DNA from: a virus
Direction: 5' to 3' (one strand)
Length of the DNA stretch: 63,403 nucleotides
IMG/VR virus record: IMGVR_UViG_3300026512_000012
Span: 1 to 63,403 of that record
Shown here one piece after another: positions 2,871 to 50,993 of the stretch. Both the position numbers and the translations under genes were made by a program. Position 1 is the stretch's first letter; the number at the start of each line of letters is the position of its first letter. A model generated the notes under the pieces. It saw only the letters and a list, made by a program, of their open reading frames with translations, ran no database searches and had not been told where the DNA came from.

Positions 2871-2872
2871 CT

Positions 2873-24634: not shown

Positions 24635-25009
24635 GTGGAAAGTAAAAAACAATTTTACAATCAATTAGAACAGACTATTCGTTGGAACACAATCAGGGGT
24701 AACACCCCTGATACTTACTCTAAAGATTTAGAAGTATCTATGTTGCAAGAAGAGCTTAATGAATATAAAGAAGCTACAGATTTGTCTAATACTGTTAAAG
24801 AGCTTTTAGACATATTATTTGTTACTTATGGTACATTAAGTAAATTAGGTTTGCCATCTACAGCTATTGTTGAGTGCTATGGGACAGTTATTCAATCTAA
24901 CAATCAAAAGTCTAAAACAAAAAATGCTGCAGGTAAAATTACCAAATCAGTAAATTTTGTTAAAGCTGAACCACAAATAGCAAAAATACTTAAAAAGTAT
25001 TTTCTTTAA
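24635..25009 (+). CDS. MazG-like nucleotide pyrophosphohydrolase
   Basis: 124 residues from a GTG start. The acidic metal motif is EELNEYKEA (the EExxE type), followed about 14 residues later by KELLDILFVTYG (ExxD type), and a third helix IVECYGTVIQSNNQKS, as in all-alpha NTP pyrophosphohydrolases. Phage MazG homologues hydrolyse (d)NTPs or may lower ppGpp-like alarm signals. It is the last plus-strand gene, and its stop overlaps the stop of the convergent 1336-residue gene by three bases. Confidence 0.78.
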   Translation: MESKKQFYNQLEQTIRWNTIRGNTPDTYSKDLEVSMLQEELNEYKEATDLSNTVKELLDILFVTYGTLSKLGLPSTAIVECYGTVIQSNNQKSKTKNAAGKITKSVNFVKAEPQIAKILKKYFL

Positions 25010-29016: not shown

Positions 29017-32000
29017 TTAACATCCTTTTTCATTTACATTTAACAATTCTTCTGCTACATTTGTTGATATCGTATTGAATAAATCTTTAATTATATTTTT
29101 ACTAGATAAATCTTTTCTTTCTAAAAATGCATCAGTAAGTAGATTTTTTAATTCTTCTTTATCTTTGTTTGGTAATTGATTAAATAAATCTATTAACCAA
29201 TTACTAAATTTCTTCCACCAACCCCATGCTTCACCTTTTTGTCTAACAGCTTGTTCACCTATAGCTTGTACTAATGCTTCTTCACTTCCCCATTTTTTAA
29301 TAGCTTCTTGTACTATTGGGGTATTTTTAAACCAATGTATATAAAAATGTGCATATTCATGTGAAGGCGTATCAGTAGTAGCTATACTTGTGTTTATCAG
29401 TATTTTCATAGCATCTAAATCTGCCATACCTTTAATTCTATTAGTATTACTCTTTTGAAAGTATTCAAATCTGTATTCATCAGGGATTAACTCTTCATGT
29501 GGGAATGTATATACATTTGCACTAGGGGTGTCAAGTACCTCTTGAGAAACTAATTCACGATTTTCATAATGTGTGATGATATAAGGTGAAACACCATCTT
29601 CATGGTAGTCTATTGTTTTTATCCAACTACCTTCTTTATTATAATACTCTTTTCGGGATAATAAGCCATCTTCTGAGTACATTGCCCTAATACCTATTCT
29701 ACGCCCTATTTTATCTATTTCTCCTACTATTGTTTGGTAATTCCCATAATATATATTTTCTTCTAATAAAGTACCTTTACCACTTTGTAAATCTATATCT
29801 GCTTTTTTTTCAAACCATTCATCTTCATACATATTATAAACTTTGCTTATAGTAACACTATGGTTATTTGAAATATGTCTATCAACAATTTTTATATTGT
29901 TATTGTTATACTCTATATAAGGTTTAGTAATATCATTCTTATCACCTTTATATCTCATTACTATAGTTTCGGTATTAAGATTATTATTTTTTATATCATA
30001 TTTTAGTAATTCTGTCCATCCATTTAGTTTTCTTTTTATAGGAATGTACTCATCAGTACTATTGTCAGCTCTATCCCACCAGGAATATTCATCACCAAAA
30101 TTGCTAGCACTAAAAGCTATTAATTTTCCATTTTGAAATGCAATATATTTACTTCCTGCATATTTTTCGTTCCACATAGTCCAGGAATCTTTAGTAAGCT
30201 TACCATTATCATCAGTGTAAGTTAAACACCATGGATTGGCACTTTTACCCCAGTAATGGTTTATTATTTTTCTTACAGCTAATTGACCATTTTTTGTGTT
30301 ATCCACGCTGTACAACACTATTTCTCCAACATCTTTATTTTTTACTATTTTTTTATTTGTAAATTCTGGTATTGTGTCAGGATTTAACTTAGCACTTTTA
30401 TATGTATCTTGCTTTATATCTTCACCATATTTATCAAATATTTCATTAGGATTATTGAATTGCATAGGATCTATCTTTTTTGTAGCTGCTAGTCTAACTG
30501 CTCCTATCATTTTTTCACCATCTTCTGGTAGTAGTAAATTGCCGTCAATAGTCCATTTAATAGCGATATTATAATATTTGTTTTGATCTTTTTCTTTTAT
30601 GATACTATTATTATCAATGTAAGTTTCTATACTATCTAATACTTGTTCAATATTTTGTAAATCAGGTCTTTTTTTATGTAGTCTATTACTATATTCTTTT
30701 CTTTTTTTATTTCCTATTTGATATAAATTATTAACTGATTGATTACTAATAATTTCATTAGGACTCTCTATATACTCAATTTCTGGATAAAGTTTAGCTA
30801 ATCTATTCACCATTTGTTTAACTAGATCTTTATCGTATCCTATATCAGTACTACCAGTAGTTTGAAATTCTATTGTATTATCATTACTACTATTATTTAC
30901 TTCTTTTTTAATATTAGATTGGGATTTATTCATATCTACCTCACCGTTCCAACCTAATTTACTTAATATATTTTTGTCTCCTACTATGATTAATTGTTCC
31001 TTAGCTCTACTAACAGCTGTATAACCACTCATAGCCTTCTTTAATGATTTAGTATTACTATCATTATTACCACCCATTTTGACAGCAGTATCCCAAATTA
31101 CTGTATGTATAGTTTGGCCTTGTGCTTTATAAGTAGTTACTCCATATGCATATCCTATAGCAACAGCACTAGGAGTCATTTCCTGCAGTCTTGCAATAGT
31201 CTTCAGCATACCAAAATTAACTTCCTTATCATTTTCTTCTGTTATAAGTGTACTAGTTTCGGTACCGTTATCTTGTATTTCATTTTTATAAATTTCTGTA
31301 TATTCCTGCATAGCTTGTTTATACAATTCTTGTATTTCACCATTTCTGCTTTGTAATAAAGTTTGCATATCTTTGAATATACTTAAAGGAATTACTATAG
31401 TTGTTTCTATTTCTTTATCAGCTAATTTATATTTTAGAGTAACTGCAGATAATTTTACATCATTTTTATACATAACTGAGTATAATATTTTTCTACCTCT
31501 TACATAATTTGCTATAAGAGAGTTCTCAGCTATCTGTGCTGGTGTTGCATCTTCAACTTTTGTAACTTTAAAAACCATACCATTGGTATAGTTTGTATTT
31601 GTAATACCACTAGTTAAAGCACTTTCAAATAATACTACTTGATCCTTACCAGCAATTAATGGATTAGCTTCAGGTTTATTATCTTTAAATAATGCTTTTC
31701 TAATTTTATTATTAAACTCAGCAATATTTTTGTTATTAAATGCTACATAGGCTATTCGCTTACCTTGTGCAATATTTTTATTAAATAATCCTACAATTGC
31801 TTTCCATGTGGCACTTTTACTATTGTCAAAATGCTTACTTAATATAAACCCAACTTCTCCATCAGATGGCATACTGCTAACATCTAAAGACTTGTTGGCA
31901 TTTGGAATTTTAATAGCTCTATCACGCCTTTTTAGCAATGTTTCTACTAGACTTGCTACATGTGAAATTACACTAAACAACTTACTATCTACATTTTGTC

Positions 32001-35000
32001 TTTGTTGTTTTGATAGTGTCATTACCTTAATTCCGTTTAGTACTTCTATAGTATTTGAACCAAGTTTCTCCTGTTGAGACATTCCTATTACTCTTGCCAT
32101 TATAGGGCTTAAAACCTCTATGCTAGATACAGGAGGCAATTGGTGATAGTCACCTAACATCACTATACTGAACTTATGCTTAGCATTTGTCAATATATTT
32201 GATAATGCTACTAATTTTTTAGTATCATCTATTGATAGCATACTTGCTTCGTCAACAACTAACACAGCTGGTCCGAATTCTAATTGTGCTTGTAATGCTG
32301 TTAGCAGTGAAAACCTGCCATTAGGTATACTGATATTTGTCATTTCATCATATTCCATTTCTGGTTTATCAGTAGTACCAACTTTCATTCCTGCCAGTAA
32401 GGATGATATAGTTCGGATATCTTTTCTTATAGATGTCCCACTCATTGTTGTAGTCATACTTTCTAATACATTTGTAGCCTGGTGTGTAACTGCTGCCCCT
32501 ATGAATTTTATAGGTGTATTCGATGTTTCAGCAAGTAATTCAATTGCTCTCCCAATAACAGTTGATTTTCCTGTACCACCCATTCCTTGTACTATCAAGA
32601 GGCTATCTTCAACTTTATTAGATGTTCTTGTAAAAAGTTCAACAGCCTTATCCAATAATTTTTTCTGATCTTCATTAGCTTCAAACTTACCTTGCAATTT
32701 ATATCTATCTTTTTCTGCAAGTGTATTGTTACTATTATTATTACTACTATTACTATTACTATTACTACTATCAATAGATTTTAATAAATTTTCCGTAGTT
32801 AGTTCATTGTCAGTTAGATTTAATTCATATATTAAATTAATACCATCTTTTAATGAATCTAATGAACCTTCATTACTTATAGTATCATAAGCTTTTTGTT
32901 GTAGTTCTGTTAGCTTTTTACCATTAGTTTTATTTTCATAGGCTTTTTTTAATACATCCCATTTTACACCCAATGAGTTGAGAAAATCATCTACAACCTG
33001 TGTATGTAGACTATAAGCCTTTTTCCTATTATTCCTAGAAAAACTATTTCCTTTATCATCTACTTTAGTAGTTATTTCTCCAGTAACATTAGTTCTATTT
33101 TCAGTACTCATATTTTCTAATAGTGTACTTAATAATTTGTGTAAATTTTCTTTTTCAGTTATTTTATTATCGTCTATCTTTTCTTGTATAACATTCTTAT
33201 ATGCTTTTACTAGTGTCTTTATGAACAGCCCTTTACCTTTACTGCTCCATCTACCATTCCCAATATTATGTGTAGAATGCTCTAAAAATTCTACACCACC
33301 TCTTTTAGTAATTTCTTTAGTAATTTCTTTATGTGTTTTTAATTTAAGTTCTATCAACTTTTGCATTAACTCTGTATCATGTTCATCACCTTTAGCTCCT
33401 TCTGGTATCTCTCTAATTTGAGCATTATTTGCTTTATACCATGCCTCAACACTATGTCCCCATACATTCGCAGCTGTTCGTTTTTGTCCATTTTTAAACC
33501 AAACTCTACTAACTTTTTCAGGGGCTTTTAATTTCCATTCTTTGGGAGGTTCAATATCAAATTCTGATTTTGATGCACTACCTCTAGCATAACTTACATT
33601 TGTTAAAGCTACCCCTAAAGGATCTTCGGATTTAGTAGATATTTCAATACCTTGTATATTACTATTATTATTAATTGTTGTATGCTTAGTATTTATATCT
33701 TTATTCTTAAAATCTTCTGCTATCGCTATTAATGCAGTAACATGATTAATTTGTTCTCCTTTAGCTGTTCCGCTATATCGTAATTTACTAGCATTATTTA
33801 TTATATCTAAATTATTAAGAATAACATTTCGTCTTTTTTCCAACACCTTGTAATCACGATTGTAACCATCAGGTAATATATTGTATTTTAACCATTTATA
33901 ATATGCTATAGAAGCAGCATTATTGCCACCAACATAATAATCTTCAGGCTTTTTAACATAGTTTTCCTTAGTAACAAATGGATTACCAAAATTAATAGGT
34001 TTACCATTTCTCATAACCCATAAACCTTCGTCTGGATCTATTCTTGTAATAACTATCTTATTGAGTATATCTAATATGTCTTTATCAGATATTTTATCAC
34101 TAGCAGTATTTGGTTGTACTGTTTTATTATTATTACCATTTTTATTTAATCCTAATATATCTCTCATTTGCTGTTTCCAATCAGAATCCATCATATTAAC
34201 AGTTGGTATTCCTTTTCTTCTAGCCATTTCAACAGCTTGCCCAGTACCACCGTCTGGTCTTAAAGGGTTCTTAGATTCTTTTGCGTAAAAGATTACAAAA
34301 TCTACAGGTTTGTCTAAATTTTTACCAAATACTTGGAATGTATTTCTTGCATGTAAATCTAAGGAATACCCACTGAGGTTAGCACCAGCTGGATGAATTT
34401 CTTTTGCTATAGTACGAACTTTATCATTGGCATCATCTGCAGTAAAAATATTTTTATTAGTTATTTTATATTCTGGGTTATGAAATTTAAGGTTATTTTC
34501 AGGGATTACATTACCATTTTTATCTGTAGAAATCCAGTTACCATTAATCTGTTTATTCCTAACAGGTATCCCTGTTGTGGTGTCATATTTCATACGCACA
34601 CCTTCAAATGCTTTATCTGCTCCATTAGCATGTCCACTATTTAAAGAATACCCTTCAGCTTCTAACCATTTAGATATTTCATTCATTTTTTCCATTACAT
34701 CTATAGGTGTTTCTCTACTACCTACACCTGCATATACCATAGTTTTTTGCCCAGGTACATATTTAGGTAACTTATCAAATTTTGGTGTACTAGTAGGTTC
34801 TTTAATACCTTTCAGCTTATTTAGCATTTTATTAGCATAATCTCTTCGAGTTTTCCAATATGCAAAGTATCTAGTTTTCTTGTAATTATCTTTGGAAATA
34901 TCGTCATCATCAAACTCAAGTGTGTCTATAAATTTATTATAATTTTTTTCACTGTATGATTCTGCAAGCATTGTTAAAAATTTGTATCGTAGATCTTTAT

Positions 35001-35349
35001 CTTCTCTAGTAGTTAGTTTTCTACCTAATTCTTCCTCCAAATCCCCTATATAATCTTTTACTGAAAATTTACCACCATCAATATAACTAGTAATATTAAA
35101 ACTCTCATCTTCTATATTAAAATTTAACAAATCTTTTGCTTTGATTATGTTACCATCTTTATCTTTTGCTGGTAATCTATTTATTAACTCTTCATTTTTT
35201 TTTGTCGGTTTGAACTCCCCAAACTCTGTTGTATAGTCATCCATTTGTGAAATTAAATCTAGCAATTGTTTCTTTACAGCTTTTGATAATTTTTCATTAT
35301 TACTTAATTCTATAGCTCTCTCATACATTCTATTTATATTACATTTCAT
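29017..35349 (-). CDS. Giant polyvalent virion protein: SLOG-like, SF1 helicase, zincin-like
   Basis: I choose ATG 35349, overlapping the upstream stop as TAATG, over a TTG six bases earlier; 2110 residues. Around 205-400 lies a Rossmann segment, VYAGVGSRETP with LNSGHANGADKAFE, like YspA/DprA SLOG proteins. A central RecD-type helicase has Walker A GMGGTGKS (Lys928), LVVDEASML (Asp1033), MLGDYHQLPP, TTYKAQGQT and AVSRAKEQL. Later come NPWCLTYTDDNG with W-rich surroundings and repeats of the YYNKEGSW type, then SHEYAHFYIHWF near 1997, an HExxH motif. Such mixtures match phage polyvalent proteins delivered with DNA. The domains are read by motif; delivery is inferred from location. Confidence 0.75.
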   Translation of the reverse strand: MKCNINRMYERAIELSNNEKLSKAVKKQLLDLISQMDDYTTEFGEFKPTKKNEELINRLPAKDKDGNIIKAKDLLNFNIEDESFNITSYIDGGKFSVKDYIGDLEEELGRKLTTREDKDLRYKFLTMLAESYSEKNYNKFIDTLEFDDDDISKDNYKKTRYFAYWKTRRDYANKMLNKLKGIKEPTSTPKFDKLPKYVPGQKTMVYAGVGSRETPIDVMEKMNEISKWLEAEGYSLNSGHANGADKAFEGVRMKYDTTTGIPVRNKQINGNWISTDKNGNVIPENNLKFHNPEYKITNKNIFTADDANDKVRTIAKEIHPAGANLSGYSLDLHARNTFQVFGKNLDKPVDFVIFYAKESKNPLRPDGGTGQAVEMARRKGIPTVNMMDSDWKQQMRDILGLNKNGNNNKTVQPNTASDKISDKDILDILNKIVITRIDPDEGLWVMRNGKPINFGNPFVTKENYVKKPEDYYVGGNNAASIAYYKWLKYNILPDGYNRDYKVLEKRRNVILNNLDIINNASKLRYSGTAKGEQINHVTALIAIAEDFKNKDINTKHTTINNNSNIQGIEISTKSEDPLGVALTNVSYARGSASKSEFDIEPPKEWKLKAPEKVSRVWFKNGQKRTAANVWGHSVEAWYKANNAQIREIPEGAKGDEHDTELMQKLIELKLKTHKEITKEITKRGGVEFLEHSTHNIGNGRWSSKGKGLFIKTLVKAYKNVIQEKIDDNKITEKENLHKLLSTLLENMSTENRTNVTGEITTKVDDKGNSFSRNNRKKAYSLHTQVVDDFLNSLGVKWDVLKKAYENKTNGKKLTELQQKAYDTISNEGSLDSLKDGINLIYELNLTDNELTTENLLKSIDSSNSNSNSSNNNSNNTLAEKDRYKLQGKFEANEDQKKLLDKAVELFTRTSNKVEDSLLIVQGMGGTGKSTVIGRAIELLAETSNTPIKFIGAAVTHQATNVLESMTTTMSGTSIRKDIRTISSLLAGMKVGTTDKPEMEYDEMTNISIPNGRFSLLTALQAQLEFGPAVLVVDEASMLSIDDTKKLVALSNILTNAKHKFSIVMLGDYHQLPPVSSIEVLSPIMARVIGMSQQEKLGSNTIEVLNGIKVMTLSKQQRQNVDSKLFSVISHVASLVETLLKRRDRAIKIPNANKSLDVSSMPSDGEVGFILSKHFDNSKSATWKAIVGLFNKNIAQGKRIAYVAFNNKNIAEFNNKIRKALFKDNKPEANPLIAGKDQVVLFESALTSGITNTNYTNGMVFKVTKVEDATPAQIAENSLIANYVRGRKILYSVMYKNDVKLSAVTLKYKLADKEIETTIVIPLSIFKDMQTLLQSRNGEIQELYKQAMQEYTEIYKNEIQDNGTETSTLITEENDKEVNFGMLKTIARLQEMTPSAVAIGYAYGVTTYKAQGQTIHTVIWDTAVKMGGNNDSNTKSLKKAMSGYTAVSRAKEQLIIVGDKNILSKLGWNGEVDMNKSQSNIKKEVNNSSNDNTIEFQTTGSTDIGYDKDLVKQMVNRLAKLYPEIEYIESPNEIISNQSVNNLYQIGNKKRKEYSNRLHKKRPDLQNIEQVLDSIETYIDNNSIIKEKDQNKYYNIAIKWTIDGNLLLPEDGEKMIGAVRLAATKKIDPMQFNNPNEIFDKYGEDIKQDTYKSAKLNPDTIPEFTNKKIVKNKDVGEIVLYSVDNTKNGQLAVRKIINHYWGKSANPWCLTYTDDNGKLTKDSWTMWNEKYAGSKYIAFQNGKLIAFSASNFGDEYSWWDRADNSTDEYIPIKRKLNGWTELLKYDIKNNNLNTETIVMRYKGDKNDITKPYIEYNNNNIKIVDRHISNNHSVTISKVYNMYEDEWFEKKADIDLQSGKGTLLEENIYYGNYQTIVGEIDKIGRRIGIRAMYSEDGLLSRKEYYNKEGSWIKTIDYHEDGVSPYIITHYENRELVSQEVLDTPSANVYTFPHEELIPDEYRFEYFQKSNTNRIKGMADLDAMKILINTSIATTDTPSHEYAHFYIHWFKNTPIVQEAIKKWGSEEALVQAIGEQAVRQKGEAWGWWKKFSNWLIDLFNQLPNKDKEELKNLLTDAFLERKDLSSKNIIKDLFNTISTNVAEELLNVNEKGC

Positions 35350-38300
35350 TAACAACCCTTAATGTCATCTTTAATACCGAAACTATTCCGTAGCACTAGT
35401 GGTAACTTATTATATGCCTTCATTATATCTTCTTTTATCTTATCATTCGCTTTTGCATTTGGATAATATTCATAACCAGACTCTTTCGTTAATACCATAT
35501 GCTGTATTGTTATATGCTTACTATATAATTCCTTTCTAAACTTCTCATTAGATTGTGCATATGACCACAATTCAGTTAATACCTTTTTAGGGTCATTCTC
35601 AGACTCACTTACTACCTCTTCTAATTCTTCATCAGTTAGTAAGTCTAATACTCTTTCTAGTGTTTTAGACACTTCCCCTAAATAATTCCATTTTTTACTT
35701 ACTAATATTACTCGTTTATTATATTCTCTAACTATATCTTCCACCGATGCTAATCCCATTATAATTGCATCGTGCACTTCTAGTACACCATACTTATCCG
35801 CTATTGCTCCCATTATTGCTGCATCTAGTGTATGTATTGGTATTACTCCACCAGCTGCTCCTGCTTCTGCTAACCATTTCTTTAGGGCACTGTAACTAAT
35901 TTGCTGTGGTTTACCATCTTGTATCTTAAATGCTACACCTCTACCCAATTTATCTTTACTTAGTATATCATTACCTCTGAATAGACTATCTAGCAACCTC
36001 TCTTTGAATATAGCTATTGAGTCTTCTATTCCTTCTGATAATGGTCCAGCTATCACTGGAAAATATTTCATTAATTCTTTATCTGCGAATACTTTTTCTA
36101 TCATATCTTTTGTTATTCCTACATTAGTTCCCTTTTTAGCCATTTCTTCCAATTTTTGCATAGCTTTCATATTCCATACATCATATGCTATTTTCATTGC
36201 ACTATTTACAGCTTTGTTTATCTCTATTATATGTTCAAATTTATCTTTGAGGACCTGTTCTACTACTGTACCGTAACTATCTGTAACAGTTTTTCGCATT
36301 ACTTCACCTAATGTTTTACCATTCTCTGTATCTATTACATAACCTTCCCAGTCGTTCTTCATTGCATAATTCATCAAATCTATTGCATTATCATCAACAC
36401 CAAATGCTTTTAACATTTGTTCTACATCTTCTAAACTACCACTATTAAGTACTTCTTTTTCAACTTTAGCCATTATAACATCTGTCATTTCTTTAATATT
36501 TTTTACAAACCCTGCTCCATATTGGAATGTCATAAATGGCGGTTTAAGCAGTGCCCTAGCTTCTGGCGTTACTATTGTTATGCCATCCACTACTTTACTC
36601 ATTTCTTTTAGTAACCCTTTAAACCAGTTATAACCTTCTCTTAATCCCACTCCATAGTCTGCTGCTTTATATTCTTCCTTATTATCTTCTTGTTGTGTAA
36701 TTGACTCATCTATAGCTTTGTCACTTAGTGCTACTGCTAATGTTTTATATGCATCTACTAACTTACCATTCGCCACTATATCAGGAAATGCTTCATTAGT
36801 TCCATCTACAAACATCCCAGTTTTCGCTAACCATTCCTTAACTGTTACTTCCCCTACATCTAAATCAGCAGCATATTGTAATAATTTCAACCCGAAACCA
36901 CTTGTTACTGCATCCGTTTCTATTTGAAGTGTAGTTTTTACTTGCATACTTCCATCATTGATAGCTTTATGCATTAAACTTAATGCTTCCAACCCATCAG
37001 CTACATGCCCTATATTTTTTAATCCTATTTTTGTACCATTAATATTAAATTCTGTCATTTCATTACCATTAACTAAATTTTGCCATTGCTCCATTAGATT
37101 ATTATAGTTATTATCTTTCACAAGTTCTTCTACGAACTTTAGTGAATCTTCTATACTTTCTTTATCTATGTCAAATCCAAATGATAACGCTATTGCTAAA
37201 CTGAGTAGTGTTCTATCTGTTTTATTATTTAAATTAATATTTGCTACTTTTCTATTAGCTTTTATTAACCATCTAGCTAACTTTTTACCTGTTTGTGGGT
37301 TTGCTCCAGCACTATCCAACATGTATCTTGTATTTTTTGATATAAACCATTTAAACCATATACTATTTGCTGCTCTGCCTTCTTTTATATCATCTACTAC
37401 TTTTAATACACCATCTATTTCTCTTTCTATGTCCCTATTTACGGATATGTTTGATTGTCTTAGTGTATATGTCTGCCCTTTTAATACTTCTGGATCTATG
37501 TACCCCATTGCTTTTAATAGCACATTCTTATTCATTTTTAGCAATTGTTCCATCTTTTTATTTCCATCATCTATACCTTTTACATACCATTCTATATCCA
37601 TTATTTTCTTTACATGTGCTTGAGCCATTGCTGGTGCTTTAGTTATACTATTTCTGCGTATTTCTATTTCTCCATTTATATTTGGCTTACTATATAATGG
37701 ACCTGCCACATTAGCGGGTACTATTAATTCTAATTCCAATTCTCTAAATTTCTTACCAGCATTTACAGCTACATCTTTATTCACTGTGAATGTCACTACC
37801 TTTACACCTTCTGCTCCATCCCCTAACAGTTTCGCTCTAGCCTCTCTAGCATCACTTATTTCTTTTTCACTAACCTCTGGATTTTCTGCTTTGAACAGCA
37901 TATCCCCCATATCTAATGCTCCAGTCTCTTTCACATTTATTAATCCTAATTCTCTACCTAACTCTATCACATGCGCACCCATACTTTGTTCTAGCATTGA
38001 GTATCTCTCTTTAGGATTATCTACTTTGCTATCTTTTTTTCTCTTTAGACCCATCAGCTTCAGTGTATTTTTACCGACACTATCTGATAGATATTTTATT
38101 GGTCTGCCTATTTTTCTATAGTACTCCAGCACATCTGGTGTAACATTCTCTACACCATAATCATTTGTTACATCTTCAGCAGTCATCGGTACTTCATATC
38201 CTCTACTACCTAATAGTTCTTTCAGAGCCAATACCATAGCCAGTGCTGTCTCTTTAAACACTTCACCACCATCATCATCAGTACCTTTAGGTTTTGTATA

Positions 38301-41300
38301 TATTAATGCCCTTGCAGGAGCTTTTCTATACATCATCTGCTGGTTAGCTTTTATAACCTTACCATTTTCATTTGTACCTATTTCCAAATTATCTTGCCAT
38401 ACTGGTCCTATATTTTTTAAGGCATCAGCAGCAGTTTCAGCTTCAGCTTTGGCGGCTTCACCTAAGTATTCTACGGGTACACTTGCTATTATACTTTCTG
38501 TCTTTTTATCTGCTTCAGCAATATCATTTATCTGTGTATCAAACAATCCATCTTCAACCTTACCTGTACCTTTCCTTAGTGGGGATATATAAGCATTCTT
38601 CAATCTACTCTCAATTATCTTAGCTCCTTGATACTTAGCTTTTAATACCTGTATTCTTTTACGCAGTTTAGTTGTAATTTCCTTTTGTTCATTAATAGCT
38701 CTAACTTTAGCTTTAGCTTCCAACTCTAGTTCAGTAATACCTTTCTTTTTTTCATAATTATCTATTTTCTTTTCTAAACTGTTTACTCGATTATTCCACA
38801 TATTTATAGTATTTATATGCTTTTTATATTCTTTATCTAATTTATTTTGTTTCTTTTCTAGATCCTGTAAATCTTCTTTATAACCATTCAACATCATTAT
38901 TATCTTTTTGATAATATTCTTTATGCCGTCTTTTAACTTATCTAAACTAGTTTGTAATTCTTTTCTTTTTTTAGCCAACAATGCCTTTCCACCTCGTAGT
39001 TTAGATTGGACTACTTCTATTTCTTTAGCTAGTTCTCTATGTTCAGCTTCTATTTCTTTAATTCGATTTTTAGCAATTTCTACTGCTTTCCATGGTTTAC
39101 CTTTTTTATCCATTAAACTGCTATACTGATTTCTCCAAGCATTATATTGTTTACTAAATGTTCTAGTTATACCATTAATAGTAGCTTTTAATCCTTCATG
39201 TATTTCTTTGTAATGATTAAGTCTATTTTGATGTTCTATTAGTCTCTTACTGACATTAACAGCTGCTATTCTAGACATTTTAGCATCTTGACTTCTTTCA
39301 CCTACTTCTGGTACCCAGTCTAACATTTTACGCTCATGTAGAAACTTCGGCTCTACCTTACCATTTAATTCATCTTTTATTCTACTATATACTTCTATTG
39401 CTTTGCTTTGTTGTTTTATCGTAGCTCCCTCAGCAATACCTTTCTCCCACGCTTTTAATGGCACTGCCTTTATTACTTTATTCTCTTTCAGGCTTTGCAT
39501 GTACTTATTGTTTATCACATTTATATATTTCTTTTGTAGCTTATCCACTATTTCTGGATTATTCTTAGCTAGTGCTTTAACTTCATCTGTTACTTTCTCA
39601 CCTTTAACAAACTTGATTAGGTTTTTCATTCCTTCTTCATCAACATTCTCTTGTACAGGCTCGCTATTGTTATTATTATTGGCATTAAGCTCTGTTTCTT
39701 TCTCCTCTACTAATCTTTCAATATATTTAGGATTGTTTTGTAGTAGTTGTCTTATCTTTTTATCATCTTCCTCTGGTAGTATCAATCTATTTTCTGCATC
39801 TCTAGGTAAACTGAACACTGTTTCTAGTAATGGTTTGATTACTTTATATCCTTTATCACCTTTATACTCTTTAGTTACATCTATCCCTTGATAAATGTTA
39901 TTCTCACCATCATCACTATTTTTCTTCTCTTCCCCATCTATTATAGTCTGTAATTTATTAGGGGCAGAATCCCCATTTACTAATTTAGCTACCATTGCAT
40001 TCAGTGTGTGTACTTCGCTACTGACTGTATTTACTAGTTTCAATGTACTTGATGGTTTCAACTGTTCTTTTATTTTACTATCTTCATTTAATATATCTGC
40101 TATCAACTCGTAGGCATTTACTTCAAATTTACCATCTTTACCATCCACAGCTGCTGCATATTTCACAACTTTATTTTTACTCTCTAGTGCTCTCTTATAC
40201 TTACTATCTTCTCCATACTTCTTTATTGCTTCTTTAGCAGCATCATACACAGCTTGGTTATACTCTTTGTAGTTCCAACCATTACCATTCTTATAGTCGT
40301 TTAGTTCGGGCATCTTCACACCCATCAACTTTGCAGCATTTGCTATATAATCATCTGTTAGTGCTTTTCTATCTTTTATAAGATTTTCATTATTTCCTTT
40401 GTCATATGTTGCACTTGTCAAGTATGCCATACCTTTTTTTACAGCTATAGCATCCATATCGGGATTGTCTTTGATAATCTCATTCAGATATTCTTTCACA
40501 TCATTCTCTACTTCTTCATATGTATTTAGCAGTCTATTTCTTTTTTTCTCTTCTATTCCAGCAAATCTTTGGATACTTGCAGTATCCCCTTGTTGGAATA
40601 GTTTCGCCATACCTTCATACCCTCTGAAACCTGTATCTATTATATTCTGTCGTACTGTTGACATAGTATCTGTTAGTATCTCACTTCTAGCTCTCCTATC
40701 CAATAGTGCTTGTTTCAGGTCTTCTAATTGTTCTTTACTAGCTTTCCGTTTAAACTTCTCATCATTTACTAAATTATCAATATATTTTTTAGCTATATCA
40801 TCATTATCTATCTCTGTTATAGCATCTAATAATTCTTTTACTCTTCTAGAATCCGATCCTAACACTTCATGATCTACTTTACCATTAGGCATACTTTTCT
40901 GCATTACTTCTTTTACACGCTCATTGAATGTCTCAGCATGCTTATTGAATATGTTTAACTGTTCTTGTGTAACTGTACTATTTTGAAACCTTTGCTGTAT
41001 ATATTTTAATCTTTTAGCTATTGCCCCAAGATCGTCACCAGCTGTTAATACATCTAAATCTTTTAGATGTGTGTCTAGGCTTTTTCCATCCATTTCTTGC
41101 ATTTCTTTAGATGTTTCTGGATCTATTACTTCATTGTCTGGATTTATATCCTGTTGGTTTTTAACCGTACTTTTTATAGTTTGCTTTACTACATTTGTCA
41201 TTGGTTTTATTGCATCTAGTGTATCACCAATTATACCACTTGCTGCTCTTGGACTTGCCATATGCACACCACCTGCAACACCAAACGCTGCACCTTGCAC

Positions 41301-43754
41301 AGCATCATGAAATGCTCTATTTAATGCTTCAGTAGTATTACCATCTTTATACACACTATCAAAACCTTGTATAGCACTTTGTATTGGTTCTACTACTAAT
41401 TCTGCTAAACCACCTTCAGCCAATTTAGCTCCACCACTAATCATTCCTGTTACAAATTTAGTAGCTCTCTTTTTACCTATTGCTTTTAAGAACCCAGATA
41501 AGCCTTCTTTAGTACCTAATAGTGCTATTTTATCTCCAGTTATTTCTAATTTAGCTCCAAGATAGTTTCCTGCTAGACTCAGCAATGCATGCCCTATTGA
41601 TGCTCTCTCACCATATTTATCATAATATTCGTCCATATCCTGTTCAGTCATTAATGCACCAAGGTGTAAATCATCTGCATTTTTTACTAAGAACATTTTT
41701 AATTTATCTTTAACAGGAGCCTTCATTAATGCTTCAGTACTGTTATTTATTAATAGTGAAGCCGATTTTTTAGTATCTTCACTTAATATCATTTTATTTA
41801 AACTTTGTTCCGTCTTTTCACTTATTGCTTTACCACTAGCTTTTAATGTAGCTAATTTTGCTTCAGCTTTTGCGGATTCTTTTAAAGCTTTTTCAGCTAC
41901 TTTTCTAGCAGCTTCTTTACTCATTAACTCAGCTATACCTTTCCCAGCAAGTTTAGCTGTTGCTTTCTCAGCAATACCAGTTACAAATCCTATTGTGTAA
42001 CCAAGGCTTTTAGATGACATTTCAGGGGATGCAAATGCTGCCTTAGTCATATTCCATAGTGCATGCAGATTAACATTACCATATGTGGATGGATCAGTAG
42101 CCTCAACATTTTTAAATGCTTCTTGTTGATATTTCTCTGCTTCTTCTGATTTACTCCCTAAATTTCTTAGGAATTGTGCACCATCAATGTAATTCTCTAA
42201 TTTATCCATTCTATCTTTTGTTAGCACTTTTACATTATCAGCCATTCTATTTGCAGTTTTATCATCATAACCCCATATATACTTTGCAGATCCGTAAACA
42301 CCTGCAGAGAACAAGTCATTAGCTATCTTAGCTGTATCCCCAGCTGCTCTCGCAAAACTACCTGTAAAGCCTCTTATATTAGTACCTGTCCTATCTACCC
42401 AGCCTTCTTCTTCAGGGGCTACAGTTACAGGTCTATTCAAGTAATTAATATAAGCATTCTTACCTAATTCATAATATTCTTTCCCAGTAGTATTATTGCT
42501 ATCAGTCCTATTTAAATTTTTGCTACCATTAGCACCTAATAAATGAGCAGCAAATGTTTTACCTATTAAATCTCCCATATCCTTTGAAGAACTTTTAAAT
42601 TTCTTCATGTAGTCTACGATTGATTCTAATGCTACTTTATCTTGTACACTAGGATTTTTTAAGAAATCATCTTTACTTTTAATACCGTATTTACCTGTCC
42701 AATTATCTGGATTATTTAATCCCTTACTATCTGTTCCTTTTTTAACCATTCCTAGGTCTTGTAGTCTCATTGCTCCGAACTGATAGCCACCTATATAACT
42801 ATGGCCAGGTTTCATATCTTCACTATAATTACCACTACTTTCTCTCATTTTTAATGTATTAAGCATTTGTAACAATAAGTCACTATCCATTTTCACATTC
42901 TTAGACGATGCATGGTTATATGTATCTTTAGAATCTGCTATCTTAGCTATATCAGTTAAGCTCATACCTTTTTCAGTATCACCTTCAGCATTACCCCAGA
43001 TACTACCATCTTTAACTATTTCTGTATAGCTTCTACCTGCTTTATCTTCATAGTGCTTCCTATCTCCTAATAGATATTTTCTACCATTTAAATCTTGTTG
43101 CCCACCGTGGAGATATGCTTCAAATCCTTTAGCAGTATCTACATCATTAAGCATCAATCCATTTATACCATCTCTAGCTGGTTCATAACCACCTGTCATA
43201 CCTGGCTTCTCATACTTTGCATAGTTTTGTATCAATTGTGTTTCAGGGTCTATACCGCTGTCAGCATCAACTGTAAAGTATCCTGCTTTCTCATAACCAT
43301 CTTTTAAATTTCCATGATATATACCACCTATTTTACCATGTATTATTTCGTGATTATCTACTTTTCTGAAGGTTTTATCTTTAGGTTCCCAATAATAACC
43401 ACTATCAACAAAATCACTTGTTATTTGTTGCCTATGGGCATTACTATCTTCATTATATATCTTATTTTGGTTTGAATACACATTACCATTTATTACTGAT
43501 ATACTGTCATCCATATTACCTAATTCGTTTACTTTCTGTTTTCTCCAATAATTTATTTGATTATCATTGTTACCATACTTGCCATTAAGTTGTTCTATTT
43601 TTTCTTGTTTTCTTTGCAATAAATTTTGTATTTTATCCTCAGATTTATTTTGAGATAACTCTGGTTGTGCAGATTTAATTTCAGGAGTATTTTGTTGTGT
43701 TAGTTCTGATGCAGTATCTACATCATTCTGTGCTAGTATTTCAGCGATAGTCAT
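35349..43754 (-). CDS. Virion RNA polymerase with transglycosylase-like N-terminus (N4 gp50-like)
   Basis: 2801 residues, ATG after AAGGATACACA. Near residue 305, KMRESSGNY and IGGYQFG resemble lysozyme/transglycosylase folds (catalytic Glu305). Glycine/alanine-rich helices follow to about 900, and long coiled coils at about 1500-1750. The C-terminal third holds single-subunit RNA polymerase motifs in order: KNTRYM (Arg2143, T/DxxGR position), TDAVTSGFGLKLLQ (motif A, Asp2281), R2400-x3-K2404-x3-MT-x2-Y2412-G (motif B, exact T7 pattern) and EVHDAII (motif C, Asp2662). The spacing resembles N4 virion polymerase. It should be packaged, ejected and transcribe early genes. Confidence 0.85.
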   Translation of the reverse strand: MTIAEILAQNDVDTASELTQQNTPEIKSAQPELSQNKSEDKIQNLLQRKQEKIEQLNGKYGNNDNQINYWRKQKVNELGNMDDSISVINGNVYSNQNKIYNEDSNAHRQQITSDFVDSGYYWEPKDKTFRKVDNHEIIHGKIGGIYHGNLKDGYEKAGYFTVDADSGIDPETQLIQNYAKYEKPGMTGGYEPARDGINGLMLNDVDTAKGFEAYLHGGQQDLNGRKYLLGDRKHYEDKAGRSYTEIVKDGSIWGNAEGDTEKGMSLTDIAKIADSKDTYNHASSKNVKMDSDLLLQMLNTLKMRESSGNYSEDMKPGHSYIGGYQFGAMRLQDLGMVKKGTDSKGLNNPDNWTGKYGIKSKDDFLKNPSVQDKVALESIVDYMKKFKSSSKDMGDLIGKTFAAHLLGANGSKNLNRTDSNNTTGKEYYELGKNAYINYLNRPVTVAPEEEGWVDRTGTNIRGFTGSFARAAGDTAKIANDLFSAGVYGSAKYIWGYDDKTANRMADNVKVLTKDRMDKLENYIDGAQFLRNLGSKSEEAEKYQQEAFKNVEATDPSTYGNVNLHALWNMTKAAFASPEMSSKSLGYTIGFVTGIAEKATAKLAGKGIAELMSKEAARKVAEKALKESAKAEAKLATLKASGKAISEKTEQSLNKMILSEDTKKSASLLINNSTEALMKAPVKDKLKMFLVKNADDLHLGALMTEQDMDEYYDKYGERASIGHALLSLAGNYLGAKLEITGDKIALLGTKEGLSGFLKAIGKKRATKFVTGMISGGAKLAEGGLAELVVEPIQSAIQGFDSVYKDGNTTEALNRAFHDAVQGAAFGVAGGVHMASPRAASGIIGDTLDAIKPMTNVVKQTIKSTVKNQQDINPDNEVIDPETSKEMQEMDGKSLDTHLKDLDVLTAGDDLGAIAKRLKYIQQRFQNSTVTQEQLNIFNKHAETFNERVKEVMQKSMPNGKVDHEVLGSDSRRVKELLDAITEIDNDDIAKKYIDNLVNDEKFKRKASKEQLEDLKQALLDRRARSEILTDTMSTVRQNIIDTGFRGYEGMAKLFQQGDTASIQRFAGIEEKKRNRLLNTYEEVENDVKEYLNEIIKDNPDMDAIAVKKGMAYLTSATYDKGNNENLIKDRKALTDDYIANAAKLMGVKMPELNDYKNGNGWNYKEYNQAVYDAAKEAIKKYGEDSKYKRALESKNKVVKYAAAVDGKDGKFEVNAYELIADILNEDSKIKEQLKPSSTLKLVNTVSSEVHTLNAMVAKLVNGDSAPNKLQTIIDGEEKKNSDDGENNIYQGIDVTKEYKGDKGYKVIKPLLETVFSLPRDAENRLILPEEDDKKIRQLLQNNPKYIERLVEEKETELNANNNNNSEPVQENVDEEGMKNLIKFVKGEKVTDEVKALAKNNPEIVDKLQKKYINVINNKYMQSLKENKVIKAVPLKAWEKGIAEGATIKQQSKAIEVYSRIKDELNGKVEPKFLHERKMLDWVPEVGERSQDAKMSRIAAVNVSKRLIEHQNRLNHYKEIHEGLKATINGITRTFSKQYNAWRNQYSSLMDKKGKPWKAVEIAKNRIKEIEAEHRELAKEIEVVQSKLRGGKALLAKKRKELQTSLDKLKDGIKNIIKKIIMMLNGYKEDLQDLEKKQNKLDKEYKKHINTINMWNNRVNSLEKKIDNYEKKKGITELELEAKAKVRAINEQKEITTKLRKRIQVLKAKYQGAKIIESRLKNAYISPLRKGTGKVEDGLFDTQINDIAEADKKTESIIASVPVEYLGEAAKAEAETAADALKNIGPVWQDNLEIGTNENGKVIKANQQMMYRKAPARALIYTKPKGTDDDGGEVFKETALAMVLALKELLGSRGYEVPMTAEDVTNDYGVENVTPDVLEYYRKIGRPIKYLSDSVGKNTLKLMGLKRKKDSKVDNPKERYSMLEQSMGAHVIELGRELGLINVKETGALDMGDMLFKAENPEVSEKEISDAREARAKLLGDGAEGVKVVTFTVNKDVAVNAGKKFRELELELIVPANVAGPLYSKPNINGEIEIRRNSITKAPAMAQAHVKKIMDIEWYVKGIDDGNKKMEQLLKMNKNVLLKAMGYIDPEVLKGQTYTLRQSNISVNRDIEREIDGVLKVVDDIKEGRAANSIWFKWFISKNTRYMLDSAGANPQTGKKLARWLIKANRKVANINLNNKTDRTLLSLAIALSFGFDIDKESIEDSLKFVEELVKDNNYNNLMEQWQNLVNGNEMTEFNINGTKIGLKNIGHVADGLEALSLMHKAINDGSMQVKTTLQIETDAVTSGFGLKLLQYAADLDVGEVTVKEWLAKTGMFVDGTNEAFPDIVANGKLVDAYKTLAVALSDKAIDESITQQEDNKEEYKAADYGVGLREGYNWFKGLLKEMSKVVDGITIVTPEARALLKPPFMTFQYGAGFVKNIKEMTDVIMAKVEKEVLNSGSLEDVEQMLKAFGVDDNAIDLMNYAMKNDWEGYVIDTENGKTLGEVMRKTVTDSYGTVVEQVLKDKFEHIIEINKAVNSAMKIAYDVWNMKAMQKLEEMAKKGTNVGITKDMIEKVFADKELMKYFPVIAGPLSEGIEDSIAIFKERLLDSLFRGNDILSKDKLGRGVAFKIQDGKPQQISYSALKKWLAEAGAAGGVIPIHTLDAAIMGAIADKYGVLEVHDAIIMGLASVEDIVREYNKRVILVSKKWNYLGEVSKTLERVLDLLTDEELEEVVSESENDPKKVLTELWSYAQSNEKFRKELYSKHITIQHMVLTKESGYEYYPNAKANDKIKEDIMKAYNKLPLVLRNSFGIKDDIKGC

Positions 43755-43821: not shown

Positions 43822-46314
43822 TTACAGAGTGTCTATTAAATTTTGCAATTGTTCAGCAGGACTTATATTGTTTACAGACGTAACTTGTTTAGCTTTTTTA
43901 ATCTTTTTAGCCGCATCAGTAGCTCTTATTGTATGTATTTTTTTTAATCTTTTTACAATAGGCTCTATGTATTTAACATCTTTTTCAGACATGTTAGGAT
44001 TTTCTTTTATAAATTTTTTAATACTTCTTATTGTTTGGTATTTAAAATCTTTTGGTGCCATATAATTATAACCCATACCTGTTTTACGCATACTAGTACT
44101 TTTATTAAAATTATTTTGAAGATCTTCTATAAATTGATTAACTTTTGGTGATTTTAATTTATCAATTTTAGTCATTACATTATTAAATACTTCTGCATAT
44201 TGTTTATTTGCTTTAATTGCAAATGCTTTTTGTAATTTAGATACAGGAGTATTAGCTCCTGTTTTTTCTAAGATTCTTTTTGTTAAGTTTATACCTGGTG
44301 TGCTATTGACAAGCTTTGCTCCATACTTTCCTACTATAGGTAACTTACCAGCATACTTAACAGTTTTTAGAGCAGTCCCTGGTGTAAGTGCAAATGAGCC
44401 TATTGTAGCCATATTATTTAATGTATCTTGAGAATATATTGAATTATTTTTAGTCATTCTATTTATGGCATCATTTGATACTTTATCTAAATCTTTCCTT
44501 GTTTGATTAAATATACCATCTGTTGCTGAATTATAGCTATCTTTACCAGTAACTATATCTTTTAAATTCATAGCAGCATCTTGGGGTAGTTCAGCAAACC
44601 ATGATAAACCACTTAGTGTTTTAGCTCCTATAGACTCTGATATATTTTTTACAGCTTTTCCAGCAAATCTTAATCTATCCCCTAGACTGTTTGGCATAAA
44701 CCCATGTTTATCATAATAATTATTAGTAATATTTACTTTATCTTGGTTAGTAAGACCACTATTTTTAAGATAAATAGGGTCTTTAAATACTTCTAAAATA
44801 TCAGATGGGCCCTTCTCTAAAGCAGTTGTTATCATTTTTATAGCATTATTTCTTTTTTGTGTATTTATTAATGAATTTGGTTTTAATGTAGTTTTATCCC
44901 AATTAGAATTAATTAACATACTCTGTAACCTATTATAAGCTTCAGTATTATCATGATTTCCTACAGTACTAAGTTTTTTATTTTTATTCCAATTAGAATT
45001 AATTAACATACTTTGTAATCTATTATAAGTTTCAGTATTGTTATGATTCTCTACAACATTAAGTTTTTTATTTTTTGATTTAGTAGTTAAATCTTCACCT
45101 AATGTACTCTTATTTACTGGCTTTAATGCATTTTCAAACAACCTTGTAATAGCATCTCTTTTGGCTTCTGCAGGATTTGTATTGAGTGTAGTTAATTTCT
45201 TAAGTAATGTATTTATTTTATTTTTATTATTTATAATACTTTCAGTCATATAATCTTGATACTCATTACTACCTTTTATTAATGATACAGGTTTATAATG
45301 ATGTAGTGGATCTTCATCAGGGTGCATCCTTAAATATTCTTGATCCGCTGTATTCAATACATCTTTCCCAAGCTCTGTATTATGTAATCCAAATCCACCA
45401 GCACTTTCATCCATATCTGAATTTATTAAATATTTAATCCTGTTTTCAGAGTAATTATTATTTCTCATTGTCTGTATTAAATCTCTTAAATTACTAGCAT
45501 CTATACCTACCCCTTTAGGTGATATTTTTTTGGCAATTCTATCTTCAAAATCAGCAAATAATTCTTTATCTTTTTTATTTGTATTTTCTTTTGGCACGAA
45601 TATTGTTTTACCTGTATCTGCATCTTTATAATATATTCCTTTAGTATTACTTCTAACACTACCAGCACTCTTACTACCACTGTTAGATTTTAATAGTGCC
45701 CTCATATCAGTGCCTATGTTTTTAGTATATCCTTCTATCTGCTTAGCTAAACTATTCTTTTCATTGTTTATAGCTGTTATTTGAGCAGCTCTAGCCGCTT
45801 TTAAATTAGTGGCTATATCAGATGTGAGTTCTAATCCAGCATCTGCTACTTTCTTAGCAGCTTGTTGATTTCTTTCTAATTCAGTTAATCCATATTTAGG
45901 GTTATCTACTAATGTATTTGCTGCATTACTTATATTCAACTGAGCCTTAGCTTTAGCCATTATATCTCTTAACATATTCCCAGTAATATTAGACTTTTTT
46001 AAAGCATCATTATCAGTTATATCTACACCTTGTGTAGCTTTTACTTCCTCAGGGGTTAGTGTAGCTTTATCCCATTCACTTTGAGGCATTAAACTATTAA
46101 CATCTCTACTATCTGGATTCAAGTATGCTTTTGTAAACATATTATTAGCTTTTCTAGTATCCTGTTTATATTTATACTCTTCATCAGCTCTCTGATTAGC
46201 CCTAAACAATAATGCATTTCTCGCATTATTTTGTCCTATTTGAAGTTGTCTATCAATATTTTTTTGTCTTTGTTTGTCTAACCCATCTAAGAATTGTAAG
46301 AAAGCTGATTGCAT
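43822..46314 (-). CDS. Internal virion protein, 830 aa
   Basis: ATG after GGAGTATATA. It is Asn/Lys-rich, with a helical N-terminus (LDGLDKQRQKNIDRQL), a 30-residue tandem duplication (about residues 412-472), and a mildly hydrophobic Gly/Ala stretch near 640-700 (SFALTPGTALKTV). There is no enzyme motif. It lies directly before the virion RNA polymerase gene and after a small internal-type protein, matching the place of N4 and T7 ejection proteins. I infer a capsid-internal or tail-channel protein; sequence identity to a named family is not visible. Confidence 0.7.
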   Translation of the reverse strand: MQSAFLQFLDGLDKQRQKNIDRQLQIGQNNARNALLFRANQRADEEYKYKQDTRKANNMFTKAYLNPDSRDVNSLMPQSEWDKATLTPEEVKATQGVDITDNDALKKSNITGNMLRDIMAKAKAQLNISNAANTLVDNPKYGLTELERNQQAAKKVADAGLELTSDIATNLKAARAAQITAINNEKNSLAKQIEGYTKNIGTDMRALLKSNSGSKSAGSVRSNTKGIYYKDADTGKTIFVPKENTNKKDKELFADFEDRIAKKISPKGVGIDASNLRDLIQTMRNNNYSENRIKYLINSDMDESAGGFGLHNTELGKDVLNTADQEYLRMHPDEDPLHHYKPVSLIKGSNEYQDYMTESIINNKNKINTLLKKLTTLNTNPAEAKRDAITRLFENALKPVNKSTLGEDLTTKSKNKKLNVVENHNNTETYNRLQSMLINSNWNKNKKLSTVGNHDNTEAYNRLQSMLINSNWDKTTLKPNSLINTQKRNNAIKMITTALEKGPSDILEVFKDPIYLKNSGLTNQDKVNITNNYYDKHGFMPNSLGDRLRFAGKAVKNISESIGAKTLSGLSWFAELPQDAAMNLKDIVTGKDSYNSATDGIFNQTRKDLDKVSNDAINRMTKNNSIYSQDTLNNMATIGSFALTPGTALKTVKYAGKLPIVGKYGAKLVNSTPGINLTKRILEKTGANTPVSKLQKAFAIKANKQYAEVFNNVMTKIDKLKSPKVNQFIEDLQNNFNKSTSMRKTGMGYNYMAPKDFKYQTIRSIKKFIKENPNMSEKDVKYIEPIVKRLKKIHTIRATDAAKKIKKAKQVTSVNNISPAEQLQNLIDTL
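44901..45077 (-). repeat. 90-bp tandem duplication inside the 830-aa gene
   Basis: Two copies of a 90-base unit start at 44901 and 44991, each beginning AATTAGAATTAATTAACATA on the plus strand. They encode two 30-residue copies with the core NRLQSMLINSNW preceded by NHxNTExY. The copies differ by scattered substitutions, so the duplication is not brand new, and the frame is kept. Confidence 0.85.
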
Positions 46315-46323
46315 TATATACTC

Positions 46324-46905
46324 CTAATATGTTTCAGATACATGTTTGTATTTAGGTGCTGTTACGGTGAATCCAGATTTTGCAGCAGCTTCCATACTAG
46401 CTTCTTTACCAGCTAGTAGGTTTTCATACTGGGTAGCAGCTAAACTGTAATCTTTAGCATACTTATGTCGTGTGTCTGCTAATTGTCGGTTTAGCAATTT
46501 AGCATTTTTATTTGTGTTATGCATGCTATACCAATCCATACCTATTCCGTACAGACCTTTACCTGCTTGTACCATATCTGAGCTCATAAATCCACCGCTA
46601 ATTACTTTAGTTTCCATTTGGCCTGTCTTAGGATTAAGCTGGGTTACCGTAGTATCATTGGGCTTACGAAAATTATCCCAGAAACTACCACTTTTACCTT
46701 TATAGAATAAATCATTAGCAAATCCACTTACATGTCCATTATTAGTCATTGCTTTATTTATAATTGGGGTTACATTAGTACCTGTATTAAACAAGTTATT
46801 TACATCTACTCCGCCTATTAAATTATTAAGATATGTGTTAAAATCACTACTTGCTAGTGATACTGTATCAGGCATTGTATTAAATACAGAAGGTTTTGTT
46901 GTCAT
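46324..46905 (-). CDS. Small internal virion protein, 193 aa
   Basis: ATG with TAGGAGTATATA upstream. The N-terminal 60 residues are Asn/Ser-rich and flexible. The middle has a Gly-rich helix (GKGLYGIGMDWYSMHN), and the C-terminal half is one long charged helix with Ala-rich ends (AATQYENLLAGKEASMEAAAK). This shape resembles small pore-forming ejection proteins such as T7 gp14. The gene stands at the matching place, before the larger ejection proteins. Function inferred by shape and order. Confidence 0.6.
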   Translation of the reverse strand: MTTKPSVFNTMPDTVSLASSDFNTYLNNLIGGVDVNNLFNTGTNVTPIINKAMTNNGHVSGFANDLFYKGKSGSFWDNFRKPNDTTVTQLNPKTGQMETKVISGGFMSSDMVQAGKGLYGIGMDWYSMHNTNKNAKLLNRQLADTRHKYAKDYSLAATQYENLLAGKEASMEAAAKSGFTVTAPKYKHVSETY

Positions 46906-50067: not shown

Positions 50068-50970
50068 TTAATCTGTTGTTAAATCTACACTATTATCAAC
50101 TCTTTGAGCTATAATATTTGCTAATTTATCTAGTTTACTCCAATGTGTAGGTGTTACTATAGCTCCATCAGCATCTGCATACACCATTGCTGCACCACCA
50201 GATGCTTCTTTATACAGATCTTTCAACAAACTGTCATCTAACGCTGCTTTCTGTCTATCATACAGGCTAGCTTGTTTTTCTTTTACTATTACATCTTTAT
50301 CTTTTACGGCTCTAGTTGCTATTCCATTTAAGCCTGCTTCAGATTTTTGTTTATCGATTAGCTCTTTATTAGCTAATGTTTGTTGAATTTGAGCTTCTTT
50401 TAAGGCATCATTTCTAACACTTGCTGAGATAGTTTCTTGTTCTTGTGTTTGCAATAGGGATATTTCCCTATTTAGTTTATCATACTGTTTATCTTTTAGT
50501 AGCCTATCTTTAATACCATTTTCAGTTAATTCTATTCTTTGAGTACTTACATACTCAGTTTCTGCTTGTAACTTTATCACTTCTTTCGGTAATATATTCG
50601 TATATTGGTACTGCTGTGCTTTTATCTCTTCTGTAATCTTATCTTTTTGTGCTTGAATTAACAGTATATCTTCTCTTTCTTTAGCTAGTTTATAACCAGC
50701 ATCTCTATTCTCTACAGCAGTCTGTAACGCTATCGTCATTAATCTGTCTGTAGTCTGTACAGTTATATCTGTTATAAGTTTAGACAACATTTCAGTTTTT
50801 TCTCTAACTGATAATGTGTTATCTGGTTCATTAAAATAACTTAATAATGTTTCTTTAGCTCTAATATATAAACTATTCTCACCTGTAGTTTCAGCTACTA
50901 ATTGCCTATATGGAGTTACTATATCCAAATCCCCTGTTGCTTCTTTTATAAATTCTTCTGTATTTGCCAC
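50068..50970 (-). CDS. Coiled-coil structural protein, 300 aa
   Basis: A long helical protein with heptad-like Leu/Ile spacing and Gln/Glu/Lys richness from about residue 60 to 240, ending in a short globular part (ASGGAAMVYADADGAIV). A related but shorter coiled protein is at 56104-56616. Proteins of this type serve as tail needles, connectors or fibre stems. It follows the large tail protein and precedes the 1039-residue protein. No family name is firm. The ribosome site is AAAAAGGATAATAAG. Confidence 0.65.
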   Translation of the reverse strand: MANTEEFIKEATGDLDIVTPYRQLVAETTGENSLYIRAKETLLSYFNEPDNTLSVREKTEMLSKLITDITVQTTDRLMTIALQTAVENRDAGYKLAKEREDILLIQAQKDKITEEIKAQQYQYTNILPKEVIKLQAETEYVSTQRIELTENGIKDRLLKDKQYDKLNREISLLQTQEQETISASVRNDALKEAQIQQTLANKELIDKQKSEAGLNGIATRAVKDKDVIVKEKQASLYDRQKAALDDSLLKDLYKEASGGAAMVYADADGAIVTPTHWSKLDKLANIIAQRVDNSVDLTTD

Positions 50971-50993
50971 TTATTATCCTTTTTAATTTTTAA

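Follow-up and report, generated by a model that had tools for sequence, protein, structure and literature searches.

This locus raises the question of how the parts of an N4-type virion RNA polymerase (vRNAP) could travel together when they are encoded as separate proteins. The window, by which we mean the whole stretch of DNA analysed, is a virus record of 63,403 bases. It carries N4-like portal, major capsid, gp54/55/57, primase, helicase and ssb genes in N4-like order, as expected of Schitoviridae, and its matches to the Schitoviridae gene set comprise phrog_1216, 1357, 2050, 2130, 2120, 2135, 1967 and 743. RNAPII (gp15/gp16) and terminase (gp68) were not found among the ORFs searched, nor was the early region found in the contig, from which both ends of the genome appear to be missing. 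The initial annotation had placed an N4-type virion RNA polymerase in a 2801-residue ORF at 35349-43754, at the C-terminal end of the protein and not centrally as in N4. The ORF is real and both the identity and the position of the polymerase proved correct. Its features, all on the minus strand, are as follows.

35349..43754, minus strand: piece 1 (P0001), 2801 aa from an ATG start, N-terminal part and RNA polymerase domain
42453..42869, minus strand: lysozyme/transglycosylase-like domain, P0001 residues 296-434 (phrog_27932, E 1.7e-23)
35352..38498, minus strand: polymerase region, P0001 residues 1753-2801, equivalent of the N4 mini-vRNAP (AlphaFold2 and Foldseek)
37326..37328, minus strand: Arg2143 (KNTRYM), equivalent of N4 R1421 (alignment)
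36912..36914, minus strand: motif A Asp2281 (IETDAV), equivalent of N4 D1556 (alignment)
36519..36557, minus strand: motif B R2400...K2404...Y2412, equivalent of N4 K1667/Y1675 (alignment)
35769..35771, minus strand: motif C Asp2662 (HDA), equivalent of N4 D1948 (alignment)
35352..35354, minus strand: Cys2801, last residue of piece 1, inferred coupling cysteine (sequence and the cysteine rule set out below)

P0001 matches PHROG 2206, 'virion RNA polymerase' (E 6.8e-54), and its best cultured N4-like match by tblastn is the group of Alteromonas AD45 phages (26% identity over 815 residues, E 3e-46). Arg2143, Asp2281, R2400/K2404/Y2412 (within the motif B sequence RALLKPPFMTFQYG) and Asp2662 are all at the residues first assigned to them and, in a MAFFT alignment of P0001 with N4 gp50 and seven other vRNAPs, the five catalytic residues R/D/K/Y/D share the N4 vRNAP columns in order. 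In N4 gp50 these are R1421/D1556/K1667/Y1675/D1948, which correspond to mini-vRNAP R424/D559/K670/Y678/D951. Judged from the PHROG and tblastn scores, the match to vRNAPs is far above chance. An AlphaFold2 model of residues 1753-2801, built with 47 sequences, gave a pLDDT of 83.9 and a pTM of 0.85. The fold comparison that had been suggested as a check returned the N4 mini-vRNAP first (3c3l, E 7.5e-26, TM 0.63): the first ten Foldseek matches in the PDB were N4 mini-vRNAP and N4 gp50 (E 7.5e-26 to 2e-21, TM about 0.6), with the mini-vRNAP crystals ahead of the gp50 cryo-EM structures and the T7 (E 1.6e-12) and mitochondrial polymerases later, so that the fold is nearer to N4 mini-vRNAP than to T7 RNAP. 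A phmmer search of P0001 against the PDB gave no significant match, and neither P0001 nor the C-terminal piece described below, as single queries, found close relatives in the viral contig collection. Within the known N4 vRNAP family this polymerase is a new and highly divergent member. The active-site assignment is based on alignment and predicted fold. Packaging in the virion, ejection and early transcription by this polymerase are inferred from homology and late-operon position only.

Two other features of the locus may be recorded here. The lysozyme-like domain, at whose start the pYD6-A vRNAP match to P0001 also begins, lies inside the polymerase protein, and the phage may bring its own wall-cutting domain; for the N4 ejection proteins, in contrast, an absence of peptidoglycan hydrolase activity has been reported (PMC12633501). 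Two late ORFs of 300 and 1560 aa (50068-55676, minus strand), with only weak tail-protein PHROG matches, separate the gp53-like from the gp54-like gene; N4 has none there.

The usual N4-type vRNAP combines its three domains in one chain of about 2,800-3,800 aa. In the window the N4-type C-terminal domain is present but encoded separately, as P0003, and the polymerase is C-terminal in P0001 because this domain is a separate downstream gene. The genes of P0001 and P0003 are 6.3 kb apart with P0002 between them, and the three domains are not on one giant polypeptide.

29017..35349, minus strand: piece 2 (P0002), 2112-codon ORF, 2110 aa from the ATG at 35349, between P0001 and P0003
35341..35343, minus strand: Cys3 of piece 2, coupling inferred (sequence)
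34135..34746, minus strand: DprA-like domain of piece 2 (phrog_768, E 2.5e-48)
30967..32610, minus strand: SF1 (Dda/AAA_30-like) helicase domain of piece 2 (phrog_325, E 6e-34; PF13604, E 2e-15)
29347..29361, minus strand: zincin-like HEYAH in piece 2 (assigned by motif alone)
29020..29022, minus strand: Cys2110, last residue of piece 2, coupling inferred (sequence)
25006..29016, minus strand: piece 3 (P0003), 1336 aa, homologous to the C-terminal domain of N4 gp50 (phrog_2206, alignment and Foldseek)
29005..29007, minus strand: Cys4 of piece 3, its sole cysteine, coupling inferred (in the low-confidence N-terminal arm of the model)
28246..28260, minus strand: HELVH zincin motif of piece 3 (motif; an HExxH is likewise conserved in the C-terminal domain of N4 gp50)
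43822..46905, minus strand: pair of ORFs (830 aa; 193 aa) where N4 has its gp51/gp52 ejection-channel genes (synteny)

P0003 matches the C-terminal third of phrog_2206 (profile 2285-3044, E 3.8e-128) and aligns with the N4 gp50 C-terminal domain along most of its length. When its predicted model was compared with the PDB, only N4 gp50 fell below E 0.001 (9pnt, E 1.7e-18); about 150 N-terminal residues of the model are of low confidence. P0001 ends 139 residues past motif C Asp2662 and the N4 RNAP domain ends at 2101, 153 residues past D1948, so the window split falls at the matching site. The flexible linkers of N4 gp50 are residues 907-1006 (NTD-RNAP) and 2102-2123 (RNAP-CTD) (PMC12633501). 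The 830- and 193-aa ORFs have no cysteine and no family match.

The joints between the three pieces share one peculiarity. P0001 ends in KGC and P0002 begins MKC; P0002 ends in KGC and P0003 begins MAKC. All cysteines of the three proteins are at these two joints except Cys1708, the one internal cysteine among the three of P0002 (3, 1708 and 2110). Viral contigs were scanned by polymerase homology, not by cysteine, and gave 78 non-redundant loci at 90% identity. Cysteine is present on both sides at 50 of the 52 listed junctions between polymerase and C-terminal pieces (POL-to-CT), and the remaining two are produced by a spurious small ORF in locus L077 that breaks one real cysteine-tipped pair (an opposite-strand 278-aa ORF at 13333-14169 between the polymerase and C-terminal pieces; the pair is kept). 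In the split pieces of this N4-like set every inner end has a cysteine within about 6 residues, the N-terminal one mostly at residue 3 or 4. Inner junction ends hold 128 of the 133 cysteines of 105 pieces, where 1.12 would be expected under random placement, and outer ends have none (0/39 chains). A caveat to these counts is that the piece upstream (NTD) was identified in part from its own cysteine; the POL-to-CT counts do not share this weakness. Among other genes of the same loci an N-terminal cysteine was found in 4/218 and a C-terminal one in 7/218, and the internal cysteines of the vRNAP proteins numbered 8 per 265,164 aa against 222 per 98,385 aa in these control genes. Exceptions with internal cysteines are P0002 (Cys1708), L031, L048 and L083. 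Fused vRNAP chains lack any cysteine in 14 of 16 cases, L014 and L059 having two or one. The vRNAPs of LUZ7 and LIT1 have been described as devoid of cysteine, which was linked there to periplasmic disulfide formation (PMC3715699). Remnants of a split intein were considered and rejected: the cysteines of the N4-like set, within about 6 residues of the ends, leave no space for intein halves.

Pairs of cysteines are also present where inserted genes separate the pieces, and partners that are not adjacent retain them (G001, G003 and L027). In G001 the NTD piece (1515 aa, ending EEGCV) and the POL+CT piece (beginning MAC) lie 5.7 kb from each other, and other genes intervene. The genes between the vRNAP pieces in L018 (G001) and L106 (G003) include a cysteine-containing protein of 1.3-1.4 kaa, and in L027 unrelated genes separate the N-terminal vRNAP piece from the polymerase piece. 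HExxH motifs occur in ten inserted proteins and an SF1 helicase in four, the window's P0002 being included in both counts. Locus L041 (6188-16456) has a fused POL+CT chain that ends SCDC, and the contig stops about 490 bases later; by the cysteine rule a further piece starting MxC should exist. A scan of the genome collection gave one match, L080, from a MAG that carries the label Sulfolobales. Like the AD45 group it is split, with ends DHC and MTIC; it is likely a misbinned phage, and therefore no host was learnt from it.

The same arrangement might arise trivially if one N4-type gene had been broken by sequencing or gene-calling error, or if the pieces were joined by readthrough or frameshifting. 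P0002 and P0003 do share a frame with a single TAA between them, and such artefacts are real: Shigella phage pSb-1 has three ORFs broken within domains and no terminal cysteine, L103 has no start codon, a 17-nt overlap and no terminal cysteine, the break in L051 is artefactual and again without terminal cysteine, and L070 was counted among the artefactual breaks. All four were rejected as true splits. The true splits, by contrast, have start codons, fall in the linkers between domains and have pieces set apart by entire inserted genes or by kilobases of other genes; they form a deep supported clade and carry the cysteine pair that the artefacts lack. Breakage or readthrough is already refuted for most splits, and we regard it as very improbable overall. 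For AD45-P1 a gene-calling mistake or readthrough was suspected and its two ORFs were joined in a survey that removed proteins under 2500 aa (PMC10654107).

Equally, the cysteines could be a by-product of translation signals, with the gene-end AAAGGATGT acting as ribosome-binding site for the next gene; both window ends read KGC and overlap a likely ribosome-binding site. The N-terminal cysteine remains unexplained in this way, and other genes of the same loci mostly lack a C-terminal cysteine (7/218, as given above). The reading is refuted because non-adjacent partners and opposite-strand partners (in the phages crAss001 and DAC15, see below) keep their cysteines, and next to no chance is left for it.

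The POL/CT split maps to one clade of 27 rows (support 99/96), the window included, when 50 polymerase domains are placed on a tree, and therefore its junctions represent one event kept over large divergence and not independent trials. The NTD/POL split requires six state changes on the tree and insertion of a middle protein seven, with cysteines present each time. By descent, as inferred from these sequences, the polymerase is still classed as N4-type despite the split, which it shares with 27 of the 50 tree rows.

A second lineage has the same pattern. The crAss-like virion RNAP is of the two-barrel type, unrelated to the N4 type. We examined seven crAss-like phages (phi14:2, crAss001, DAC15, Fpv3, cr55_1, p-crAss and crAss002); cr273_1 was left out because its in-frame stops under table 11 suggest a different genetic code. 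Cysteine is present at 10/10 junctions and 0/14 outer ends, and 20 of 43 cysteines are at joints against 0.18 expected. In phi14:2, g067 ends TIC, g066 begins MAC and ends ECK, and g065 begins MSC. The crAss001 gp47 and DAC15 gp78 genes are opposite in strand to their partners, and some crAss pieces have several internal cysteines. crAss002 gp33 fits the rule only from a downstream start (MSC) and not from the annotated one; in that gene (L127, 12151) the annotated start is probably 32 codons early, and the downstream Met gives MSCTPSN. Near its virion RNAP gene, p-crAss (L132, 26941-28208) has two genes with the annotations thioredoxin and truncated thioredoxin. A reciprocal terminal-cysteine rule is demonstrated, as a pattern in sequence, across the split clade and the crAss-like trains.

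We propose that the window encodes a three-protein, disulfide-coupled N4-type vRNAP train, a reading to which we give a probability of roughly 0.7, with the bond and its function inferred. The train would run from the N-terminal part with the polymerase (2801 aa) through the DprA/helicase cargo (2110 aa) to the counterpart of the N4 C-terminal domain (1336 aa), and the C-terminal cysteine of each piece would pair by disulfide with the N-terminal cysteine of the next. These bonds would stand in for the flexible peptide linkers that join the N4 gp50 domains, and the low-confidence N-terminus of the P0003 model would suit a flexible coupling arm. N4 gp50 itself behaves as beads on a string, must pass a channel of roughly 35 Å, and its C-terminal domain inhibits transcription (PMC12633501). 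The coupled pieces might be packaged in fixed order and ratio and ejected as a single thread through the narrow tail, after which the reducing host cytoplasm would break the bonds and release separate enzymes; release of the C-terminal domain could also lift the autoinhibition that has been described in N4. Such joints would offer places for inserting extra cargo, such as helicases and zincin-like peptidases. No disulfide between the pieces has been observed, and its inference has its basis in the cysteine pattern and in homology. Virions assemble in a reducing cytoplasm and the timing of oxidation, after lysis or in the host periplasm, is unexplained; nor is anything shown that would stop mispairing of C-end to C-end. 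A thioredoxin or Dsb-like protein was not found by Pfam among the ten small or unassigned window ORFs scanned.

The reciprocity would be explained equally well if the paired cysteines joined neighbours non-covalently, as shared metal ligands or as a thiol docking clasp among several copies; an N4 virion contains about four vRNAPs. Zinc sites shared by several chains are possible in principle, and some ends have two cysteines (L087, 'VCNDGTSC'). However, the ends usually have a single cysteine, and conserved His, Asp or further Cys neighbours are lacking, so that metal binding would require several chains. Virions outside the cell are in oxidising surroundings, and the crAss001 virion is known to contain disulfides. 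We hold non-covalent pairing to be unlikely, though it deserves to be kept in mind. In crAss001 virions gp47, gp49 and gp50 are present in an estimated up to six copies each, and the inter-protein disulfides are in tail and portal-vertex proteins, i.e. elsewhere than in the RNAP pieces (PMC10172136). A further reading is that the cysteines do not pair with one another but attach the pieces elsewhere, be it to another virion protein, to a lipid or to a scaffold; the identity of the partner is without direct proof and the cysteine rule names none. Against this, outer ends lack cysteines in both lineages, fused chains have none at the fused joint, and cysteines occur on both sides exactly where a split exists; we give such attachment only a slim chance. 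For the disulfide train, we think it rather probable, if by no means assured, that two unrelated lineages, N4-like and crAss-like, thread ejected giant proteins through reducible disulfides, that uncoupling frees the cargo and possibly activates the polymerase, and that the joints are cargo slots.

Comparison with known systems places the window among relatives. N4 gp50 (PDB 2po4, 3c3l, 9pnq, 9pnr and 9pnt) shares the polymerase fold, the catalytic residues, a C-terminal domain with HExxH, a terminal place in the late operon and the near absence of cysteine inside the protein; it is, however, one 3500-aa chain without cysteine, whereas the window has a separate gene for the C-terminal domain, an inserted 2110-aa protein and cysteines at the joints. 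The cultured Alteromonas phages vB_AmaP_AD45-P1 to P4, in which the vRNAP is annotated as a potential frameshift, are split at the window's joint, with a 2514-aa ORF ending KHCKQ and a 1419-aa ORF beginning MTIC. Their coding part has no further cysteine and, unlike in the window, no gene is inserted between the pieces. The crAss-like trains (phi14:2 g067-g066-g065; crAss001 gp47-gp50-gp49) likewise consist of several giant ejected RNAP proteins with cysteines at all inner joints and at no outer end, but differ in their unrelated RNAP type, in variable gene order and strand, and in more internal cysteines in some. Polyvalent proteins are also giant ejected proteins with N4-like RNAP, zincin peptidase and lysozyme, yet were described as multidomain single polypeptides (PMC5512222); searching its text turned up neither cysteine nor disulfide nor splitting. 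No literature linking split vRNAPs with terminal cysteines was found in open-access papers and, although prior mention is not excluded, the reciprocal terminal-cysteine architecture is undescribed as far as that literature could be searched.

How megadalton proteins pass through a 35 Å tail with their order and ratio kept has yet to be explained (PMC12633501, PMC10172136). The near-perfect cysteine rule in two unrelated lineages suggests a directly testable answer, a reducible covalent train, and its joints suggest a redox-cleavable coupler for protein delivery. 'Broken' vRNAP genes, earlier joined or length-filtered in a survey, become a real class. The rule predicts co-travelling proteins and gene starts (e.g. 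crAss002 gp33), and it marks unknown genes as injected cargo.
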